The position numbers were made by a program, and so were the translations under genes. Under the pieces are notes generated by a model, which worked only from the letters and a program-made list of their open reading frames with translations, did not search any database and was not told where the DNA came from. 45,941 bases of DNA from a virus, in IMG/VR virus record IMGVR_UViG_3300044492_000068, positions 1 through 45,941 of that record. One strand, given 5' to 3'. Shown one piece after another: positions 2,525 through 34,524 of this stretch (position 1 is its first letter; every line of letters starts with the position of its first letter).

Positions 2525-3297
2525 CGGCCGGGCCTCCCCGCTGCGCGCCATTCCGATCGCTCAGCGTCACGCGCGGCGCCGGGCGACGAGAACCGCGCGA
2601 TCGCCAGCTCCGCCTGATTGTGGAAATCGTCGACGGCGTAGATCAGGCCGGCGCGCGCGGCCGTGCACTTGAGGTGCTCGATCACGTCGCCATGGTGAGG
2701 AGCCGGGCCGCCCGAACGGTAGAGACTCGCGACTTCCCGCCACACGAGGGCCCGGAGGACGTTCGTCGCCTCGACTGGCGGCCGTCGCCGTTTCGGGTTT
2801 TCCACAGGTTTTCCACGTTCCGCCGTGCGGAGCGCGGCGTGATCTTCGGCCTGTACGGGGACGGGATCCGGATCAAGGACGGGATCGCGCGCGCGCGAGC
2901 GCCGAGGACTCCGCGTGGAGTCCGAACGGACACGCTGATCCTTTTCCTCCCGCTCCTGTCGCTTCCGAGCGGCGTCGCGTTCCCGTTTGTCCTTTACGTC
3001 CTGAGACTTAGGGTTGTGATGGTGGTAATCATGGATCCGCCAGCCGCCCGGGACCGGATCCCATAATCCGACATCAGCGAATCCCAAAACGAGCGCGATT
3101 TCGCCCGGTTTTCGATCGATCTTGAACGACTTTACGACCGATTCCGACAGGAATCCGTCGGTCAGGTGCTTGTTCGCGTAGGCCAGCCCCGCCACGTAGA
3201 CGGCGAACGCCCGGGCGATTCCATGCCGCCCGAGGTGCCGCCCCGCGTCGAAAAACTTCGGGTGATCCGCGATGCCGTCGTCGAGCTTGACCCACAC
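2521..3297 (-). CDS. Replication-initiation-like winged-helix protein
   Basis: 258 residues with a GTG start. The N-terminus (MWVKLDDGIADHPKFFDAG, then AFAVYVAGLAYANKHLTDGFL) is typical of phage proteins with an N-terminal winged helix found at replication loci, analogous to lambda O-type or replisome organiser proteins. A highly charged linker (about residues 100-170) separates it from a C-terminal helical domain (about 175-240). It precedes the RusA gene with a 4-base overlap. Origin recognition is a role expected from the family layout, not shown here. No clear iteron array was found in the gene. Confidence 0.7.
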   Translation of the reverse strand: MWVKLDDGIADHPKFFDAGRHLGRHGIARAFAVYVAGLAYANKHLTDGFLSESVVKSFKIDRKPGEIALVLGFADVGLWDPVPGGWRIHDYHHHNPKSQDVKDKRERDAARKRQEREEKDQRVRSDSTRSPRRSRARDPVLDPDPVPVQAEDHAALRTAERGKPVENPKRRRPPVEATNVLRALVWREVASLYRSGGPAPHHGDVIEHLKCTAARAGLIYAVDDFHNQAELAIARFSSPGAARDAERSEWRAAGRPGR

Positions 3298-3300
3298 GGG

Positions 3301-3567
3301 CTACGACTCCGAACGCGTCGTGAGGCCCTCGCTCGAGGCGCCCGGCGCCCCGCCCTCCGGCGTCGATATCTCGCCGGGTGTTACCTCCCTCGAGCGCCGG
3401 GCGGGCCGCCTGGCCCCTTCTGCGGCCGCGTGGGCGCGGGCCGGTTCCGACTTCGCCCGTCGATCGATCGTGCCCTTGCAGACGGCGAGGACCGTACGAG
3501 CGGAGTCGAGATCGGCCGTCTGGAAAAACTCGACGGCGGCGTCGGCCGGGTTGCGTTTACGTGCCAT
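3301..3567 (-). CDS. Small hypothetical phage protein
   Basis: 88 residues, start ATG with a CACGAGGAGA ribosome binding site. The conserved-looking part is at the N-terminus (residues 9-36, with FFQTADLDSARTVLAVCKGT), which should be helical. The C-terminal half is a low-complexity Ala/Arg/Pro/Gly tail. It lies just before the replication-like gene. Function unknown. Confidence 0.65.
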   Translation of the reverse strand: MARKRNPADAAVEFFQTADLDSARTVLAVCKGTIDRRAKSEPARAHAAAEGARRPARRSREVTPGEISTPEGGAPGASSEGLTTRSES

Positions 3568-7649: not shown

Positions 7650-8312
7650 CTACGATCGCGGCGGCGTCGATCGACGCTCGCCGATACTACTCCTCCTCAC
7701 CTCGCCGAACGCGCGGAACACCTTCGCGAACCGCGCCGGCGCCATCCCAAGGTAAACGATGTAGTTCGCGTGGGAGGGCGCGGCCGCGTCCCGCTTCGGG
7801 AGGAGCGCGAGGCCCTCGCGTCGACGTCGACGGTTCTCCGTGTCGATCTTGGCGAACCGCTCGATCCGCTTCGCCTCGCTCTCGACGAACGCGATCCGAC
7901 GATCGGGAACACAGATCGGGAAATCGAGCGGGTTGTAGATCCGCGGCGGCGCGAGCGCGTCGTCCATGGGTTCGTACCCTTGCAGGGTTTGAAGCTGCTC
8001 GAGCGAATAGCCGATCCAGATCGCCGCCCGGATCTCCTGGTGGAACCACGCGACCATGAGGCGGTACCAGAACGCGCCGACGTGCCCGCCGGGCGGGTTC
8101 AGGAACACGCGGCCCGACCACGGGCGCCGCAGGCCGTTCTGCTTTTCCGAGTAGAACCGGCGCGCGCGGACGATCCGATTCGCCTCGCGATGCGACGCCG
8201 GATCGAGATCGATCCCGCCGAGCACCTTCCGCGCCGCCTCGACGTAGGGCGCCGGCGTGAACCATTCCGGCGAGTCGCACGAGTGCCGGGCGCCCGTCGT
8301 CGAGCGCGTCAA
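7650..8312 (-). CDS. dam: Phage-type DNA N6-adenine methyltransferase
   Basis: 220 residues. The N-terminal block EWFTPAPYVEAARKVLGGIDLDPAS (about residues 16-40), followed by RFYSEKQNGLRRPW and VFLNPPGG (catalytic NPP[Y/G]-type motif IV near residue 72), is the pattern of the phage Dam-like family that methylates adenine. GATC is a likely target given the family, but specificity cannot be read here. The window is rich in GATC. No restriction endonuclease is nearby, so self-protection against host restriction is the likely purpose. Start overlaps the preceding small gene (4 bases). Confidence 0.85.
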   Translation of the reverse strand: MTRSTTGARHSCDSPEWFTPAPYVEAARKVLGGIDLDPASHREANRIVRARRFYSEKQNGLRRPWSGRVFLNPPGGHVGAFWYRLMVAWFHQEIRAAIWIGYSLEQLQTLQGYEPMDDALAPPRIYNPLDFPICVPDRRIAFVESEAKRIERFAKIDTENRRRRREGLALLPKRDAAAPSHANYIVYLGMAPARFAKVFRAFGEVRRSSIGERRSTPPRS

Positions 8313-8455
8313 CGGTACCGCTCCCGGTGAGCGTCGACCGATCCGAGGCTCGCGAGGCGCCGGGCCTCAGTCGAGCGACGTCGTACGATCGTACGCGCGA
8401 GGAGGTAGAGGCCCGCGAGCGCGAACCCGGCGGCCAGGGTGATCAGCGTAGCCAT
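8309..8455 (-). CDS. 48-residue single-span membrane protein
   Basis: Begins MATLITLAAGFALAGLYLL and continues into a basic tail (ARTIVRRRSTEARR), so one membrane helix (residues 2-21) with the basic tail in the cytoplasm is predicted. The ATG overlaps the end of the preceding gene by 13 bases. Role unknown; it is not next to the lysis genes. Confidence 0.55.
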   Translation of the reverse strand: MATLITLAAGFALAGLYLLARTIVRRRSTEARRLASLGSVDAHRERYR

Positions 8456-8721
8456 AGACAATGAAACTCCGGGTTCTGGTAGAACCGCGAGTCGAGGGCC
8501 GCGAAAATCGCGCCGTCGCTGAGCCGACGCCCGATCGACCATATCCACTGTTCCGTCGAGCCGACGCAGTAGTCGCAATCGTCGACGAACCGATCGAGCC
8601 GGAACGTTCCGCGATACAGCTCCCCCGGCGGCGCCGGATCGAGCGCGAGCATTTGCTCGACGTCGAGCGCCTCGCCCTTTTCGAGCTTGCGCCTCATTGC
8701 CTGATTTCTCATCGCGCCCAT
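8443..8721 (-). CDS. Hypothetical phage protein
   Basis: 92 residues. The N-terminus is charged and helical (MRRKLEKGEALDVEQMLAL), and the rest has aromatic-rich segments (CDYCVGSTEQWIWSIGR, RFYQNPEFHCLWLR) with three Cys. The look is that of small conserved phage proteins of unknown function. AGGAG precedes the ATG by about 10 bases. Confidence 0.6.
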   Translation of the reverse strand: MGAMRNQAMRRKLEKGEALDVEQMLALDPAPPGELYRGTFRLDRFVDDCDYCVGSTEQWIWSIGRRLSDGAIFAALDSRFYQNPEFHCLWLR

Positions 8722-8792: not shown

Positions 8793-10319
8793 TTACGTTA
8801 CTCCGTCGAGGCGTCGCAGGATGTCGCGGACGCGGCGGGCGACGACTTCGGCGACTTGCGGGACGATCGCGTTGCCGAGCGTGCCGAGCCGTTGCCGCCG
8901 GTTGGAACGTCGACGTCCGTCCAGCCGATCGGGAACCCCATCAGCGTCTCCACCCAATCCGGATTTAGCACGGGACGAGGCGATGACGCGGGGAGGTTCC
9001 CACTCGTGTTGCCGTTCGCCCGGTCGTGCAGGCCAGCCAATTGATCGGGGAGCCCGCCCGTGTATTCCCCCTTCGCGACCTTCTGACTGATCCCCTTGTG
9101 ATCGCGACTCTGCGGCGTGAGCCAGTTCGGCGCCGGTTCCGCTTCCGGTTGCTCCTCCGCGCGCGTCGCGTCGGTTAGCGTCGTTCCCGCGTGCATGATC
9201 CCGGTTGTCGTCGTGTGCCTGGCCGCTGCGTTCGCGTCCGTCGTCTGCGGCGTCGGCCAGTCCTTCACAGCTCCGGAGAGCGTGCGCCCCGAATTCGGGC
9301 TCGTGCGGCCGACGTCGGGCCTCCCCTCGAAACCCGCCGCGTCCATCGTCGTCGGCGTCGGCCAGTTCTCGCGAACGGCATCCGTCAGGGTTCCGTTCGC
9401 CGTGCGACTCTCGCTGTCCTCTTTGATCGGCGTCGGCCAGTCGCGCGAGGCCCTCGCCTGATCCTCGAGCGACGGCTTGCTCGAGCGGCCGCCCTCCGAC
9501 GGCGGGAGGAGCGTTCTCGCGCCCGTCACGTTGCACGCTGCGCGCGGCGTCGACCAGTCGCCCTTCGCCTGTTTCGCGAGGCTCTTGCCCGTCGCCGGGC
9601 GCCCGGCGTTCGATCCGTTGTTGCTCGTCGCTTCCGGCGTCGCGTTCGGCGTCAACCATGTATCCGATGATGAAAACCCGCTCCCTCCGGTGCGGCGCTC
9701 CAACATCGGACGCTCGTACAATCGCCCACTCCGCGTCATACCCTCGATCGGCCAAGCATCCGAGAACGGCATCGATTCCCCGAACAAGGAGTCCTCGCAC
9801 GTTCTCAATAACCACGATCCGAGGACGTAGCTCGCCAATGACACGATCGAACTCGTACCAGAGCCCGGAGCGATCCCCGTCCAGACCAACTCGCTTACCG
9901 GCGTCGCTGACGTCCTGACAGGGGAACCCTCCGACGAGCACGTCGACGCGGCTTGGGTGTTCAGGCCCGTCGAGCGTTTCCCGTCGGCCTCCCGTGCGCC
10001 GTTCGCGTCCGACGTCGCTGGCGTGAGCCAGATCGCCCGCTCGACCACTGTGACGAGATCGTCGCCGCCGCTGCCCGCTCGATTGCGACGCGCCAGATCC
10101 GGGCCGCTCGATCGGTTTTTCGCCTCCGGCGTCGGCCACTCCGATCGATCGGACGTCGCTGTAGCAGGGAACTCCGGGCCAATGTCGAGCGAGGACTGCT
10201 CGACAGAATTCGTCGCTCTCGCATTGCCAGAGGACCCGGAACCCCGCGCGCTCAAATCCGAGATCGAACCCGCCGACGCCGGAGAACAGGGATCCGACGG
10301 TGTACGCGCCATCCGTCAC
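8793..10319 (-). CDS. dcm: DNA cytosine-C5 methyltransferase
   Basis: 508 residues, GTG start overlapping the upstream TGA. Motif I is SLFSGVGGFDLGF (residues 10-22), the catalytic motif IV is GGFPCQDVS with PCQ at 133-135, motif VI is ENV (172-174), motif VIII is RRERVF (211-216), and motif X is LGTLGNAIVPQVAEVV near the C-terminus. Between motifs I and IV and in the target recognition region the protein carries repeated LADA/LAHA-like segments followed by hydrophilic, Asp/Arg-rich sequence. These repeats coincide with W-(P/L/S)-T-P motifs in the +1 frame (see the overlapping feature). The N-terminal repeat-containing insert of about 60 residues before PCQ is longer than usual for this family. 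Confidence 0.9.
   Translation of the reverse strand: MTDGAYTVGSLFSGVGGFDLGFERAGFRVLWQCESDEFCRAVLARHWPGVPCYSDVRSIGVADAGGEKPIERPGSGASQSSGQRRRRSRHSGRAGDLAHASDVGRERRTGGRRETLDGPEHPSRVDVLVGGFPCQDVSDAGKRVGLDGDRSGLWYEFDRVIGELRPRIVVIENVRGLLVRGIDAVLGCLADRGYDAEWAIVRASDVGAPHRRERVFIIGYMVDAERDAGSDEQQRIERRAPGDGQEPRETGEGRLVDAARSVQRDGRENAPPAVGGRPLEQAVARGSGEGLARLADADQRGQRESHGERNPDGCRSRELADADDDGRGGFRGEARRRPHEPEFGAHALRSCEGLADAADDGRERSGQAHDDNRDHARGNDANRRDARGGATGSGTGAELAHAAESRSQGDQSEGREGGIHGRAPRSIGWPARPGERQHEWEPPRVIASSRAKSGLGGDADGVPDRLDGRRRSNRRQRLGTLGNAIVPQVAEVVARRVRDILRRLDGVT
8798..9772 (-). CDS. Possible second coding frame inside the C5 methyltransferase gene
   Basis: This frame is open over nearly the whole methyltransferase gene (8798-10312); the start given is the ATG of MPFSDAWPIEGM. 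It contains SDAWPIEGMTRSGRLYERPM, then repeats with WLTP, WSTP and WPTP about every 100 bases, and ends near LNPDWVETLMGFPIGWTD. I recognise this pattern from phage proteins commonly annotated as cytosine methyltransferases or fragments. The frame may be truly translated, or be a conserved shadow of the methyltransferase frame. Low confidence as an independent gene. Confidence 0.3.
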   Translation of the reverse strand: MPFSDAWPIEGMTRSGRLYERPMLERRTGGSGFSSSDTWLTPNATPEATSNNGSNAGRPATGKSLAKQAKGDWSTPRAACNVTGARTLLPPSEGGRSSKPSLEDQARASRDWPTPIKEDSESRTANGTLTDAVRENWPTPTTMDAAGFEGRPDVGRTSPNSGRTLSGAVKDWPTPQTTDANAAARHTTTTGIMHAGTTLTDATRAEEQPEAEPAPNWLTPQSRDHKGISQKVAKGEYTGGLPDQLAGLHDRANGNTSGNLPASSPRPVLNPDWVETLMGFPIGWTDVDVPTGGNGSARSATRSSRKSPKSSPAASATSCDASTE

Positions 10320-10882
10320 TTGCCCTCATCGGCGTCGGCCTCGCCGAGCGCGACGAGGCACGCCCATTGCGCCTCATGGATCGCCGACGGGGGAACCGCG
10401 AACGTCCCGCCGCAACTCTCGCACGTGAGCATCCCGTCGCGCACGGCCTCGCCCCGGTTCTCGCCGATGTCGAACCCGCAAAACTTGCACGAGATCAGGA
10501 CGCTCGCGAGCACCTCGCGATCATCGTGCTCGCAGTCGGCGCGCTCGACGAGCTGCGGCGCGCGGAGCCCGCCCGCCTTGATCCACACGTCGAGCCGCTC
10601 CATTACAAAGTTATGGATCCGGGCCGCCCACTCCGCGCGCTCCGGATCGTCGCCGCCCTCGCCAGACACGTAGTAGATCGGCGACGTCGGTTCGTCGGCG
10701 CCGCCGTAGCAATTGGCGTCGGCGTGATCGTGGAGATCGGCGAAGCTCGCGACGTCGGCCGGGACGGCGCCCTTCTCGACGTCGGCCCGGATCTCCCGCT
10801 TCGCGCGCGCGATCATCGCGGAGGCGATCAGGCGATCGAGCGGCTTCATGTTCGCGCCGAGCACGAGGGCGGCGTTAGTCAT
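10316..10882 (-). CDS. Hypothetical protein with zinc ribbon
   Basis: 188 residues. The first 100 residues are helical, starting with AALVLGANMKPLDRLIASAMIARAK. A CKFCGFDIG and a CESCGGTFAVP pair (about residues 132-160) form a clear four-Cys zinc ribbon. It overlaps the methyltransferase start by 4 bases. No family named. Confidence 0.65.
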   Translation of the reverse strand: MTNAALVLGANMKPLDRLIASAMIARAKREIRADVEKGAVPADVASFADLHDHADANCYGGADEPTSPIYYVSGEGGDDPERAEWAARIHNFVMERLDVWIKAGGLRAPQLVERADCEHDDREVLASVLISCKFCGFDIGENRGEAVRDGMLTCESCGGTFAVPPSAIHEAQWACLVALGEADADEGK

Positions 10883-11273
10883 TGGGCACGCTCACGAGGA
10901 TACGGCCGTTTGTCGGATGGTTCACGAAATGCCACGAGGCGCCCGGGCGCTCGCGGTTCATCGTCGCGAGCTGCTCGCCCTCGACGATCGCGCGGAGGAT
11001 CCCGTCGCTGATCGCGTCGCTGTCGGCCGACGTCGACGGGATCGGCGCGCCGCTCGCGTCGAGCACCTCGACGGAAACGACGTGCTCGCCAGTCTCGACG
11101 GCGACGAGATCGCCGCCCCATGACGGGTTCGCCGTGCCGAACGCCCACGCGAGGCCGTCGAGATCGGACGGGTGCGCGAGGAATCCCGGGTATTCGATCG
11201 ACGCGTTCGGGAGGTGCGCGGCGACGGCCGCGAGGATCGCGTCGGCGGTTGCTGTCTGAGTGCTCATGCTCAT
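10875..11273 (-). CDS. Hypothetical protein
   Basis: 132 residues with mixed alpha/beta composition; no cysteine, membrane segment or catalytic motif recognised. The ATG at 11273 has the recurrent CACGAAAGGA element 8 bases upstream. A second in-frame ATG two codons later is possible. It follows the HTH gene. Confidence 0.6.
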   Translation of the reverse strand: MSMSTQTATADAILAAVAAHLPNASIEYPGFLAHPSDLDGLAWAFGTANPSWGGDLVAVETGEHVVSVEVLDASGAPIPSTSADSDAISDGILRAIVEGEQLATMNRERPGASWHFVNHPTNGRILVSVPND

Positions 11274-30653: not shown

Positions 30654-32648
30654 CTACGAGGGTTCGGCGCCGACGTTCTTGTAGAGCCCGCGCCAGTCGA
30701 GCACCTTCGCCGCGAAGTCCTCGCGACACTTGATCTCGATCCCGTCGACGTCGAACCCGATCCGCGTCTCGATCGTCGGACCCTCCTCGCCCTCGAGGTA
30801 TCCGTATTCGATGATGTCGATCTGCTCCGGCGCGGCCGCGATGTACCACGCGAGCGGTTCGTTGTCGAGCCGTGGTTCGGCGATCACCATGAGCTTCCCG
30901 CTGAACGGGTTCACGGCGATCACGGTCTGCGGCGTGATCGGCGTCACGATGGCGTCGCCCTGCGTCTCGAGGGCGGAGCCCACGATCAGGAACTTCGGCG
31001 CGATGTTCAGCCGCTCGCCGTCGAGCGATACCTGCTGGCGCATGGACGCGCGCGCGGCGCCGAGCGAGTCGACATCGATCACGGCGCCCGCCGAGTCGAT
31101 GTTCAGGTGAGCCGCCGAGAAGAGCGCGTTGCCGTCGCCCATGATCGGATTGCTCGTGATCTGATCCCACACCAGATCGCTTTCGAGGTTCCGCGCCGCC
31201 CGTCCGAACATCGTCGGGACGCGACCGAACGCGTCGGCGTCGTCGTTCACGAGCGCCTTCCGCGTGATGGCGAACACGCGGCCGTACGTCGCGAGCTGGT
31301 ACGACTCGCGGCCCTCGCCGATCGTGCCCCGCTTGAACTCGCCGTGCTCCTTCACCTCGAGGAGCGCGGGCGCGTCGCCCATCTGCTGACGATAGACGGG
31401 CTTGAAATCGGGGAGGTTGACCTGCCGGGAGATCGCCTTGAACGTCTGCGGCGCCTCGTCGTACGCCTTGCGAACCGTCTTGTTCGCGACGTCGGCCAGG
31501 AGGTACGCGAAATCGCTCGTCGTGTGGTAGCCGTGCCCGCTGCGCTGATTGAGGCCGAGCGCCGCGGCGGCCAGCTCCATCTTCGACAGGCCCGACGTCC
31601 GGACGCCGGCGGCGTGCAGGAACGTGCGCGCCGTGTCGAGGAGCGTGAGCCCGCGATACGGCCGACTCTTGTCGTCGATCTTGAAGTACTGCGGCGCGAT
31701 CCGGTGCAGGAGCGCGGCCTCGATGCCGCCCCGCACGTGCACGAGCGGATCTTCGCCGAGCGTGATCGAGGACCCGCCCGGCTGCGGGCCGCGATCCTGC
31801 GCGCCGCGCGCCTGGAGCTCGACGAACACGAGTCGCGAAACCTCGTCGAGCGCGGTTCGCGCCTTGATGTGCTGATCGATGAACGTCTGCGGCATCCGCC
31901 CGGCGCGCGCGGCCGTCATGATGCCCTCGACGCGAGCGGTTTCCGCGGCGACGGCGCGATCGACGTCCGTCGGTTCGGCGGCCGGTCGCGCGGGCGGATC
32001 GGCCGGGTGGAGCCGGAGCGCCGCGGCGGCGGGATCTTCTGCGACGGTTTCAGGGCGGGCGGCGGGATCGTTTCGCACGGGCTGCTCCTTGCGGATGATG
32101 AGGCACGAGTTGGTCGCTACCTCGTGATTGCGGACGCGAGCGCCGACGTCGGCCGGCATCGGGACCATTGACACTTCGTAGGGTTCCCAATCGACGGCGG
32201 TACGAACCGGGATCGCGCCCGTCGTGTCCTCCATGAATTTGTGAACCCGATAGCCGACGCTGACGTTCTGGATCACGCCGTCGATCACGTCGCGATAGAT
32301 CTCCTCGACGGCGGCGCGTTTCGAGAACCGCACGCGGACGATCGCGTCGGTGCCCTCGAGTCGAAAGGAATTCGCGACGACGGTTCCGATCTGATCGGTG
32401 ATCGACCACGCGGAATGAGCGTCGAGGAGCGGCGCCGTGTTGAGGCGTCCCGTCCGGATCGCCTTTTTCGAGATCTCGAGCTGCTCGAGATATCGCGTGT
32501 CGCTCATCCAGTCGTACCGCTCGACGCCCGCGCCCGTCGAGAAAATCAGCTCGACGGATCGATCGTCCTCGTTTGCCGACGCGACGTTCGCGCGGGCCAT
32601 TAGGGAGAGCGGCGGAACATCGATCGTTTGTGACGCGCCCGGCTTCAT
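30654..32648 (-). CDS. Prohead protease-major capsid protein fusion
   Basis: 664 residues in one chain. The N-terminal region (about 1-200) has the HK97-type prohead protease pattern: DAHSAWS with His78 and QNVSVGYRV with Ser130. A Pro/Ala-rich linker (about 190-260) likely acts as the scaffold delta domain. The C-terminal part (about 310-664) is the capsid subunit (KMELAAAALGLNQRSG, GEGRESYQLATYGRVFAITRKALVNDD, NLESDLVWDQITSNPIMGDGNALF). Fused protease-capsid proteins are known in phages, and the fused protein must cleave itself to free the mature subunit. ATG at 32648 was chosen; no strong RBS was seen, but a stem-loop lies just upstream. Confidence 0.85.
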   Translation of the reverse strand: MKPGASQTIDVPPLSLMARANVASANEDDRSVELIFSTGAGVERYDWMSDTRYLEQLEISKKAIRTGRLNTAPLLDAHSAWSITDQIGTVVANSFRLEGTDAIVRVRFSKRAAVEEIYRDVIDGVIQNVSVGYRVHKFMEDTTGAIPVRTAVDWEPYEVSMVPMPADVGARVRNHEVATNSCLIIRKEQPVRNDPAARPETVAEDPAAAALRLHPADPPARPAAEPTDVDRAVAAETARVEGIMTAARAGRMPQTFIDQHIKARTALDEVSRLVFVELQARGAQDRGPQPGGSSITLGEDPLVHVRGGIEAALLHRIAPQYFKIDDKSRPYRGLTLLDTARTFLHAAGVRTSGLSKMELAAAALGLNQRSGHGYHTTSDFAYLLADVANKTVRKAYDEAPQTFKAISRQVNLPDFKPVYRQQMGDAPALLEVKEHGEFKRGTIGEGRESYQLATYGRVFAITRKALVNDDADAFGRVPTMFGRAARNLESDLVWDQITSNPIMGDGNALFSAAHLNIDSAGAVIDVDSLGAARASMRQQVSLDGERLNIAPKFLIVGSALETQGDAIVTPITPQTVIAVNPFSGKLMVIAEPRLDNEPLAWYIAAAPEQIDIIEYGYLEGEEGPTIETRIGFDVDGIEIKCREDFAAKVLDWRGLYKNVGAEPS

Positions 32649-32660
32649 GATGTGCGACAG

Positions 32661-32688
32661 CTTGCGGGAGGGCGGCGCCGTCCGCAAG
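32661..32688 (-). promoter_or_regulatory. Leader hairpin before the protease-capsid gene
   Basis: CTTGCGG (32661-32667) pairs with CCGCAAG (32682-32688) across a 14-base loop containing GGCGCC. It lies 12 bases before the ATG at 32648 in a 74-base gap, one of the few leaders in the packed head module, so it may regulate or process the capsid mRNA. Confidence 0.45.
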
Positions 32689-32722
32689 GGACTAGCGCCG
32701 CGAGCGATCACGAAAAGCCTAT

Positions 32723-32968
32723 TTACTCGACGGGCTTTCCATAGCGGCGCGCGTCGCGAATTCGGATCCGGAGATCCCCGCCGGGGAGGCGATAGGCCCG
32801 GAGCGCGCCTTTTCGGATGTCGCGATAGATCGTCTGGACGCGGACGCCCCACTTCGCCGCCAGCTCCGCGGGCGCGATCGCGGCCTCGAGGTACGGAGCG
32901 CCGCGCCGTCGACGCGTGTCGTTCCGTTCGTCGGGCCAGTGCACGGAGCGGGGAGGCTCGCCTGCCAT
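32723..32968 (-). CDS. Excisionase-like small HTH protein
   Basis: 81 residues. PAELAAKWGVRVQTIYRDIRKGALRAYRLPGGDLRIRIRDARRYG (residues 33-77) is the MerR/excisionase-type winged helix with wing, as in helix-turn-helix 17 proteins. It lies between the portal and protease genes, an odd place for a regulator; an accessory packaging or regulatory role is possible. Start ATG 2 bases after the portal stop. Confidence 0.7.
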   Translation of the reverse strand: MAGEPPRSVHWPDERNDTRRRRGAPYLEAAIAPAELAAKWGVRVQTIYRDIRKGALRAYRLPGGDLRIRIRDARRYGKPVE

Positions 32969-32970
32969 GG

Positions 32971-34524
32971 TTACGTGTCCTCCTCCGTCACGTCGGCCGA
33001 CGGCGACGCGGGTTCCGTCGGCGGAACGGGATCAGCCGGAGCGGCGGGCGCGGCCGGCTGCGTTTGCGACATCCCGGCTTGCGTCATTTTCCGGGGATCG
33101 CTGTCGAGGATGATCTCCGACTTGTCGAGGAGAGCGTTCCACGCCTTCATCTCCGCGATCACTTTCGTCGGGTTGAGCCCGCGCGCGCGAAGCTCCTCCT
33201 GCATCGTCGTGATCCCGGTTCGCACGTTGCGGAGGATCGCCAGGCCCTCCGACGCCGGATCGATGAACGGGAGCGGCGGCGGCGTCCACTCGACGTCCGG
33301 AACCTCCGCCGACTTGAGGAGCCCCGCGATCGCGGCCGCTTCCATCGCCCACGCCCACGCCGGATCACAGAACCCGGGGATCACGAGTCTCCATCGCCAG
33401 TCGTCGACGTCGGGCTGATGCGCGAGGCGCGACATACGCGCGGCGGAGAAACTGAGATCCCGGTGATCGCCGGTCATGCCCTCGTACAGCACGCGGAGCC
33501 CGCTCGAGATTCCACGGAGGTTGCGATCCATGTAATCGCCGTACTCATTCACGCGCGGAGGCTCGACGACGGAGATCTGTCGGCCCGCCGGGAGGTTCTG
33601 GATCATGCCCGGCGAGAGCGCATCGATCGACGGCGTTTGTGAGTCGTTCGGATCGCCGAGCGGCGCGCCGGAGCCGTCGAGATCGTCGCGCACGAACACG
33701 GCCAGGCACGCGGCGATCTTTTGCTTCACGAGCGTCGCGTCGTCGTAGTCGTCGAGATCCTTCCACTTGAGGAGCGACGGCGCGAACCATGAAACCGCGC
33801 GCACCTGGCCGGGCCGATCGCCGCGGAACAAATGCCGCACGCCCTCCGCCGGGATCCGCACGGAGGGCGCGTAAGCTCCGCCGACGCTGCCCGGGTGTTC
33901 GCGAAAGAGCCAGTACGCGACCCGCTCGCCGATCGGGGAGAACTCGACGCCCTGAACGATCTTCCCGCCGTTTGGCGTCGTGATCTGATCCTTTGTCGTG
34001 TCGAGGAAATCGGGCTCAAGGATCTGGAGCTGTAGCGGGATCGGGAGCCCGTCGGACGGGAGCCGGAAGCGTCGGCGGATCAGCACCTCGCCCGACTCCG
34101 CCATCGTTCGGAGCACGAGCTTTTGTAGGCCGTAGATGTCGTGCTGTCCGTCCGCGTCGCAGGCCGTCGTCTCCGCCCACTTCCGCCAGAGCGTCATCGC
34201 GCGAGCGTTCGGCGACTCCGCGACGATCCCCCATCCGATCGTTTCGTTCACGATCGACGAGAGCGCCGCCGACGCATAGGGATTGTTTCGCACGAGATCC
34301 CGCACGGCCTGACGGAGCGGCGCGGCGGCCGGGCCGATCGCCGCGTTCGCGTCCGTCGCCGGCTTGCGCCATCCCTGCGTCCGGTAGGTGTTCGCCGCCC
34401 CTTCGTAGTGGCGGGCGAGGATCTCGCCGGCGTAGCGCGCGCGCTGCCGCTTGAGCGTCCATCGCGGCGCGACCGTGGACGTCATCCGATCGAGCCAGTG
34501 CTGGCGCGCGATTCTATCGGCCAT
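32971..34524 (-). CDS. Portal protein (lambda B family)
   Basis: 517 residues. Segments such as RARYAGEILARHYEGAANTYRTQGW, PLRQAVRDLVRNNPYASAALSSIVNETIGWGI and ARAMTLWRKWAETTACDADGQHDIYGLQKLVLRTMAESGEVLIRRRF are characteristic of lambda-type portal proteins, the dodecameric ring through which DNA enters the capsid. Its gene follows the glycan cassette and overlaps it by 11 bases, so it is co-transcribed. Confidence 0.93.
   Translation of the reverse strand: MADRIARQHWLDRMTSTVAPRWTLKRQRARYAGEILARHYEGAANTYRTQGWRKPATDANAAIGPAAAPLRQAVRDLVRNNPYASAALSSIVNETIGWGIVAESPNARAMTLWRKWAETTACDADGQHDIYGLQKLVLRTMAESGEVLIRRRFRLPSDGLPIPLQLQILEPDFLDTTKDQITTPNGGKIVQGVEFSPIGERVAYWLFREHPGSVGGAYAPSVRIPAEGVRHLFRGDRPGQVRAVSWFAPSLLKWKDLDDYDDATLVKQKIAACLAVFVRDDLDGSGAPLGDPNDSQTPSIDALSPGMIQNLPAGRQISVVEPPRVNEYGDYMDRNLRGISSGLRVLYEGMTGDHRDLSFSAARMSRLAHQPDVDDWRWRLVIPGFCDPAWAWAMEAAAIAGLLKSAEVPDVEWTPPPLPFIDPASEGLAILRNVRTGITTMQEELRARGLNPTKVIAEMKAWNALLDKSEIILDSDPRKMTQAGMSQTQPAAPAAPADPVPPTEPASPSADVTEEDT

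Follow-up and report, generated by a model that had tools for sequence, protein, structure and literature searches.

Does the DNA between positions 8793 and 10319 of the 45,941-nucleotide viral contig IMGVR_UViG_3300044492_000068 (the window, analysed as a whole) encode one protein or two? An initial annotation had pointed out that within this C5-cytosine DNA methyltransferase gene the +1 frame is open as well, and had left the choice between two proteins made from one stretch and a second frame that is a conserved shadow of the first. Claims of long genes that overlap on the same strand in bacteria and phages usually meet with doubt and, to our knowledge, few have been accepted. In the present case the stretch is very probably dual coding, with two overlapping proteins, the methyltransferase and a likely DNA-recognising partner. 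The two frames, referred to as alpha and beta, are:

8793..10319, minus strand: alpha, the C5-cytosine DNA methyltransferase frame (open reading frame call; GTG start, 508 amino acids)
8798..10312, minus strand: beta, the +1 frame of alpha and probable specificity subunit, containing WPTP modules and motif IX (ATG start, 504 amino acids)

Both frames are indeed open for about 500 codons (508 in alpha, 504 in beta), on the same strand, and overlap nearly end to end. Alpha is a C5-cytosine DNA methyltransferase by its profile match (PF00145, 140.3 bits for a cut-off of 22, E 1.3e-40) and by its motifs I, IV, VI and VIII; it also matches phrog_363 in PHROG (E 2e-69) and is aligned by phmmer to M.HaeIII and M.HhaI. 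The PCQ, ENV and RRERVF motifs seen at the outset are all present in alpha, and LGNAIVPQ is there too:

10269..10292, minus strand: alpha motif I, SLFSGVGG, read from the protein and aligned to HaeIII residues 5-32
9915..9932, minus strand: alpha motif IV, GGFPCQ, with the catalytic Cys, read from the protein and the HaeIII/HhaI alignment
9798..9806, minus strand: alpha motif VI, ENV, read from the protein and the HaeIII/HhaI alignment
9672..9689, minus strand: alpha motif VIII, RRERVF, read from the protein and the HaeIII/HhaI alignment
8856..8879, minus strand: alpha motif X, LGNAIVPQ, read from the protein; position common to 133 related loci of the same layout (dual loci)

No motif IX is recognisable by eye in the alpha protein of the window, and a regular expression found no motif-IX-like string in any of the alphas of the 133 dual loci. 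This search gave no sign of a canonical motif IX concealed within alpha.

The +1 features of the initial annotation, i.e. SDAWPIEGMTRSGRLY, eight W[PLS]TP repeats and a terminal LNPDWVETLMGFPIGWTD, all lie within beta, the first and the last of them as follows:

9716..9763, minus strand: beta SDAWPIEGMTRSGRLY, which shares its DNA with the motif VIII region of alpha and is partly a shadow of alpha GYDAEW
8915..8968, minus strand: beta motif IX, LNPDWVETLMGFPIGWTD (phrog_26627 match at 449-467), which shares its DNA with the alpha linker before motif X

Judging by its sequence, LNPDWVETLMGFPIGWTD of beta is the C5-methyltransferase motif IX that has no counterpart in alpha. Beta as a whole matches phrog_1008, annotated “DNA methyltransferase” (E 9e-29). 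In L156, a related locus where the enzyme is a single chain, the counterpart of the beta motif IX aligns weakly to M.HhaI LHPRECARVMGYPDSY: LNPDWVEWLMGFPIGWT of L156 is aligned with M.HhaI LHPRECARVMGYPDSYK, immediately before motif X. This segment is weak alone (i-Evalue 3.9e2) and collinear with a strong N-terminal match; PF00145 runs through the L156 motif IX (residues 6-306, profile 2-319). The single-chain L144 is a natural fusion, with phrog_363 (the alpha family) at 10-200 and phrog_1008 (the beta family) at 476-707. Motif IX in beta, together with such fused relatives and with split ones, therefore makes beta the predicted missing part of the enzyme and not a stranger to it. Read from their motifs, alpha and beta are thus shown to carry complementary parts of one enzyme, which are also found fused or split.

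This division has a precedent. The passages of PMC3404938 that treat M.EcoHK31I (YGGCCR) give it a large subunit with motifs I-VIII and X, and place motif IX in a smaller polypeptide; compared by this description the window is alike, alpha having I-VIII and X without IX, and IX being in a second, smaller polypeptide. The initial annotation was silent on motif IX in beta and on this precedent. The small subunit of M.EcoHK31I, said to be of about 176 amino acids, was reportedly found by Lee et al. in 1995 to be encoded in a frame that overlaps the large subunit; the second polypeptide of the window is likewise read from another frame of the same DNA. The window differs in that beta has 504 codons with eight WPTP modules, two of them before PCQ, and holds the part resembling a target-recognition domain (TRD). 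It also differs as a phage orphan, although no search for a restriction enzyme was made. A plasmid search for a named EcoHK31I relative returned six records, none of them named EcoHK31I.

The repeats of beta come from one DNA word with two readings. The eight positions proposed for it are confirmed (9113-9124, 9248-9259, 9353-9364, 9428-9439, 9545-9556, 9647-9658, 10019-10030 and 10127-10138), and it gives W[PLS]TP in beta opposite LAHA, LADA, LVDA, MVDA or VADA in alpha. The modules are listed below (MAG, metagenome-assembled genome):

10031..10138, minus strand: WPTP module u1, before the PCQ motif
9941..10030, minus strand: WLTP module u2, before the PCQ motif; 3' limit approximate
9557..9658, minus strand: WLTP module u3, cut at a WPTP-like word
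9440..9556, minus strand: WSTP module u4, absent from the closest relative, L008
9365..9439, minus strand: WPTP module u5, cut at a WPTP-like word
9260..9364, minus strand: WPTP module u6, 82% identical over 33 amino acids to a module of L130 (Nitrospirae MAG)
9125..9259, minus strand: WPTP module u7, 66% identical over 35 amino acids to a module of the single-frame methyltransferase L122 (Myxococcales MAG)
8969..9124, minus strand: WLTP module u8, running into motif IX

Relatives were collected by tblastn for named phages and by scans of viral and genome contigs, mostly through the alignment of beta. This gave 176 loci besides the window (7 named phages, 89 viral contigs and 80 bacterial or archaeal genome contigs), which were classified by regular expressions and a small custom profile, 23 of them remaining unclassified. 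Among the 153 classified loci, those having a catalytic domain as well as a motif IX string, motif IX is +1 relative to the catalytic domain in 146, shares its frame in 6 and is +2 in 1; the presence of the motif follows from the way the loci were found, its frame does not. In a second sample, obtained with the catalytic domain as sole query and having at least 13 of its 80 contigs already in the first set, motif IX is +1 in 43, shares the catalytic frame in 4 and is +2 in 1, and 32 gave no match, at least six of these 32 (L234, L243, L244, L247, L254 and L259) having by eye a variant motif IX in the alpha frame.

Three architectures appear: dual (133 with complete ends), split with IX and X in beta (9, including L001, L002, L015 and L099) and single chain (L144, L134, L156, L116 and L122, plus L005 and L007). 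The later tests bear on the 133 of the 146 +1 loci selected for complete ends and a motif X in alpha; the others are the 9 split loci and four that are cut or lack a recognised X (L041, L130, L140 and L145). The dual loci range in guanine plus cytosine (GC) content from 0.35 to 0.71. L008, another viral contig, keeps both frames end to end, its best beta segment being 65% identical to that of the window.

Some of these loci call for separate mention. L116 (1865-2773) and L122 have the catalytic domain, the WPTP modules and motif IX in one frame, and the motif X string is absent from all forward frames of the piece, L122 being cut by the contig end; such loci are possibly decayed, or completed elsewhere. 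In L134 and L156, I-VIII, IX and X are in one frame and the WPTP-like repeats of the +1 frame stop before motif IX, a pattern that would correspond to switches of frame within the repeats. L152, placed among the same-frame loci, is interrupted by a stop within its catalytic domain. The main methylase of L007 (Babsiella) has LLPTP repeats, IX and X all in one frame, and a short +1-frame “DNA methylase domain protein” (gp55, 3045-3353) is annotated over its motif VIII; gp55 is a possible remnant of a beta. L158 (Fibrobacter MAG) is the sole classified locus with motif IX in +2, and there it does not overlap alpha. L157, on a contig labelled Euryarchaeota (Guaymas), is a split form on an archaeal-binned contig.

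To determine which frame is under selection, substitutions were sorted into those silent in one frame and changing in the other, and rates are given as observed over possible changes, alpha-silent/beta-changing before alpha-changing/beta-silent. In five neighbouring control genes (window vs L008) gene-silent/+1-changing substitutions reach 120/396 and the reverse 49/437; the open reading frame 8309-8578 and the short 10875-11273 alignment (23 codons, 6/16 vs 2/18) were excluded from the pool. Between the window and L008, alpha motifs I-III and IV-VIII are control-like (26/114 vs 11/109). The LADA/WPTP repeats with the insert before PCQ are reversed (9/128 vs 29/115, Fisher P=1.5e-4), and the insert alone shows the beta pattern (2/28 vs 10/25). 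In 44 independent pairs of other loci the two rates are 0.44 and 0.14 over motifs I-VIII, 0.116 and 0.311 from motif VIII to IX, 0.103 and 0.298 at motif IX, and 0.54 and 0.15 after the end of beta. Therefore selection follows alpha, then beta, then alpha again. For the pairs aligned on beta, codon positions 1, 2 and 3 have 327, 326 and 802 substitutions, with a rate ratio of 2.82 (bootstrap 2.41-3.33).

These data support purifying selection on alpha over I-VIII and after the end of beta, and on beta from VIII to IX, repeats included. Within the repeats selection acts on WPTP as the protein, LADA being mainly a shadow that alpha tolerates. The initial annotation had named, as the evidence to look for against a second protein, stop codons or neutral drift of the +1 frame among homologues; this test was run and the frame passed it. 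As to its two outcomes, the open-frame excess (see below), the substitution pattern and the complementarity of motifs favour two proteins, and a shadow is found for parts of each frame only: LADA is mostly one in the repeats, and over I-VIII the methyltransferase is the selected frame.

The modules themselves have been compared between genes. For u1, modules with about 70% identity occur in methyltransferases of mycobacteriophage and Arthrobacter phages, namely Jeffabunny (L006) and Chickaboom (L001). The catalytic domains (IV-VIII) of L006, L001, L130 and L122, by contrast, share 56, 43, 41 and 44% identity with that of the window. Division of 151 loci at every WPTP-like word yielded 401 units, and for 356 of the 357 with any match the best one is in another gene. 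L008 lacks u4 and has an extra module without counterpart in the window, alike to one in the single-chain L144. In L122 and L144 a module reads as WPTP in the catalytic frame, which confirms WPTP as the protein reading. The comparison suggests that the modules are exchangeable, and we infer that they may be target-recognition units. PMC8936443 describes, in the passages concerned, several tandem TRDs between VIII and IX in the multispecific phage enzymes SPR, SPbeta, phi3T and H2, and TRDs at separated places in M.(phi)BssHII. The WPTP arrays and the two modules before PCQ resemble these in layout; the multispecific enzymes differ in being single chains that are not overprinted.

We consider it highly likely that the two proteins together make up a single M.EcoHK31I-type C5-cytosine DNA methyltransferase, in which the WPTP array of beta is the DNA-recognising part. 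Alpha would supply the catalytic core, i.e. motifs I-VIII and X. The contribution of beta, whose translation would begin at a start codon of its own in the +1 frame, would be motif IX and the DNA-recognising part, here the module array. The two would bind each other, each module would be one target-recognition unit, and the enzyme may serve the phage as a protection of its DNA against several restriction enzymes.

Several points weigh against this reading. The start of beta is uncertain: ATG 10312 has a Shine-Dalgarno match of 4 bases, and the internal TTG candidates are no better. At motif IX the window and L008 show no preference (10/40 vs 10/34). Beta alone has no match in Pfam or NCBIfam (E<=1) and no PDB sequence match; a PDB profile search with 26 beta pieces gave a single match at chance level (E 0.58). 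In the text of PMC3404938 that deals with it, the predicted TRD of M.EcoHK31I is assigned to the large subunit, whereas in the window the selected sequence between VIII and IX is that of beta. Lastly, in an AlphaFold model of the fused L116 the catalytic domain is confident and the WPTP part has a predicted local distance difference test score (pLDDT) of 30-68, so that a TRD role has no support from the fold. The best VIA-align structure match of this model, M.HhaI 2uyc (Z 18.8, 184 aligned, root-mean-square deviation 2.7), rests on the catalytic domain; the tail of the model, which is without motif X, was rejected as support for motif IX.

The last two points would fit a two-subunit enzyme in which motif IX is the only needed part of beta and the WPTP modules form an array with a structural or linker role. 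But selection keeps the modules between VIII and IX, the usual place of a TRD, and the closeness of modules to those of other genes rather than to their neighbours (356/357) fits exchangeable specificities better. We therefore regard a mere linker as unlikely, though still deserving some weight.

The mode of expression of beta raises another alternative, programmed ribosomal frameshifting, which would join the catalytic half of alpha and the C-terminal half of beta in one chain, beta having no start of its own. The existence of single-chain forms (L144, L134, L156, L116 and L122) means that a fused product would fit the fold, and the depletion of +1 stops has its onset around motif IV-VI and not at one start codon. 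Across the dual loci these stops are as expected at the start of alpha (145 vs 150.5, no depletion). The ratio of observed to expected stops then drops to 0.45, 0.35 and 0.11 on the way to motif IV-VI and is about 0.01 at motif VIII, and beyond the end of beta the stops exceed expectation (153 vs 111.5); those of the +2 frame stay between 0.85 and 1.70 of expectation throughout. From the start of beta to motif IX the depletion is partly definitional, beta being the open reading frame with motif IX, but the position of its onset is not. Because depletion sets in there, most betas appear to start inside the catalytic domain. That of the window probably starts near the start of alpha itself, since the two modules before PCQ show the substitution pattern of beta: ATG 10312 lies 7 bases downstream of the GTG of alpha with GAGG ahead, and L008 has a GTG at the matching place.

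Candidate starts with a Shine-Dalgarno match of at least 5 bases number 142 of 1679 in the beta frame vs 32 of 722 in the +2 frame, and loci with such a start 90 of 133 vs 29 of 133. This excess, twofold in frequency, speaks against frameshifting and weakly suggests that beta is initiated separately. In addition the dual loci keep motif X in the alpha frame past the end of beta, so that a second shift would be needed, and M.EcoHK31I is reported as two polypeptides in the part of PMC3404938 devoted to it. Frameshifting is thus improbable, and a separately started beta remains the preferred reading.

There remains the conserved shadow, with the methyltransferase as sole product and a +1 frame that is open and alike only as alpha is conserved and rich in repeats. 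Long shadow open reading frames are common in GC-rich DNA, and the window has many. As a null model the synonymous codons of alpha were shuffled among themselves, retaining protein and codon usage. The +1 stop count of the window alone is not unusual for a GC-rich gene (2 vs a null mean of 3.8, P=0.15), but its open +1 run of 505 codons is reached by 0.3% of 2000 shuffles (P=0.003). W[PLS]TP words number 8, whereas 5000 shuffles yielded 0.77 on average and never more than 4; the motif-IX string arose in the +1 frame in none of 5000. GMTRSG arose in 21 of 5000, being a +1 reading that the GYDAEW codons of alpha allow, so that part of the conserved appearance of beta stems from alpha; therefore not all motifs of the initial annotation are independent evidence.

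The relatives provide the stronger evidence. An open run with P<=0.05 is found in 121 of the 133 dual loci in +1 vs 11 of 133 in +2, and among the 32 loci with GC<=0.45 there are 29 whose run was attained by none of 300 shuffles; high GC is therefore not the explanation. The shadow also disagrees with the substitution pattern reversed between VIII and IX, with the in-frame beta sequence of the single-chain L144, L116 and L122 and of the split loci, and with the +2 frame, which shows none of the pattern. We give it very little credence.

A beta that is an unrelated overprinted protein, e.g. an out-of-frame homing endonuclease like the HNH insertion in the methylase of mycobacteriophage ShiLan (PMC11855218), is the least credible reading. 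Out-of-frame HNH genes within phage methylases are known, and in ShiLan, as here, the gene of a phage C5 methylase has a further protein in a different frame; that protein is a homing endonuclease in an insertion and no part of the enzyme. Beta matches nothing in Pfam or NCBIfam, HNH families included (E<=1), belongs to a family annotated as DNA methyltransferase, ends in motif IX and is fused to catalytic domains in relatives.

Outside alpha and beta, the window has a portal gene and a capsid gene at 32971-34524 and 30654-32852 respectively, as befits a phage contig. Downstream of the pair, the gene at 7650-8312 (minus strand) matches the phage DNA N-6-adenine methyltransferase family (Dam, PF05869, E 1.2e-6), and the phage therefore probably carries two kinds of DNA methyltransferase. 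The open reading frame 8309-8578 (minus strand), left out of the controls, is alike in L008, yet over its overlap with 8443-8721 its substitutions (2/28 vs 8/20) are unlike those of a coding frame and better fit the latter frame. At least part of 8309-8578 is probably non-coding.

One enzyme of this architecture is already known, and scattered annotations show it as well. M.AquI, one C5 methyltransferase split in two polypeptides (PMC3404938), resembles L001, L002, L015, L099 and the other split loci; it is not overprinted and has IX and X both in its small subunit. In Paenibacillus phage Tadhana (54/55; 906-1976 and 1108-1812 of L178) and Mycobacterium phage Dylan (7/6), members of the beta family (PHROG 1008), both frames are annotated as coding sequences and the methyltransferase is named; the split of motifs and the overprinting go unremarked in these records. 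The wide occurrence, the modular repeats and the two modules before PCQ are new relative to the precedent. No survey of the spread of the architecture or of the modules was found in the literature searched, subscription papers and REBASE being outside its scope; papers on P2-like phages of Burkholderia and on phages of the rumen proved to be unrelated.

We see as evenly poised the broader proposal that a specificity subunit made of interchangeable recognition modules is overprinted on its own catalytic partner, and that modules move among unrelated methyltransferases of phages and bacteria, be they overprinted, split or single-chain. A swapped segment would have to be open in two frames, alpha would tolerate this because its LADA shadow would be a loop, and overprinting would keep the two subunits inseparable. 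Homologues of the second frame described here exist, its place in a known enzyme is defined, and the signature of selection on it is clear at low and high GC alike; it occurs in viruses, in bacteria and on one archaeal contig. It offers more than 100 natural examples in which the sharing of DNA by two frames can be studied, turns a single enzyme of 1995 into a widespread architecture, and shows how half of the enzyme is missed when phage methyltransferases are annotated. Should the WPTP modules indeed be target-recognition units, they would provide a parts list for reading phage methylation against restriction.

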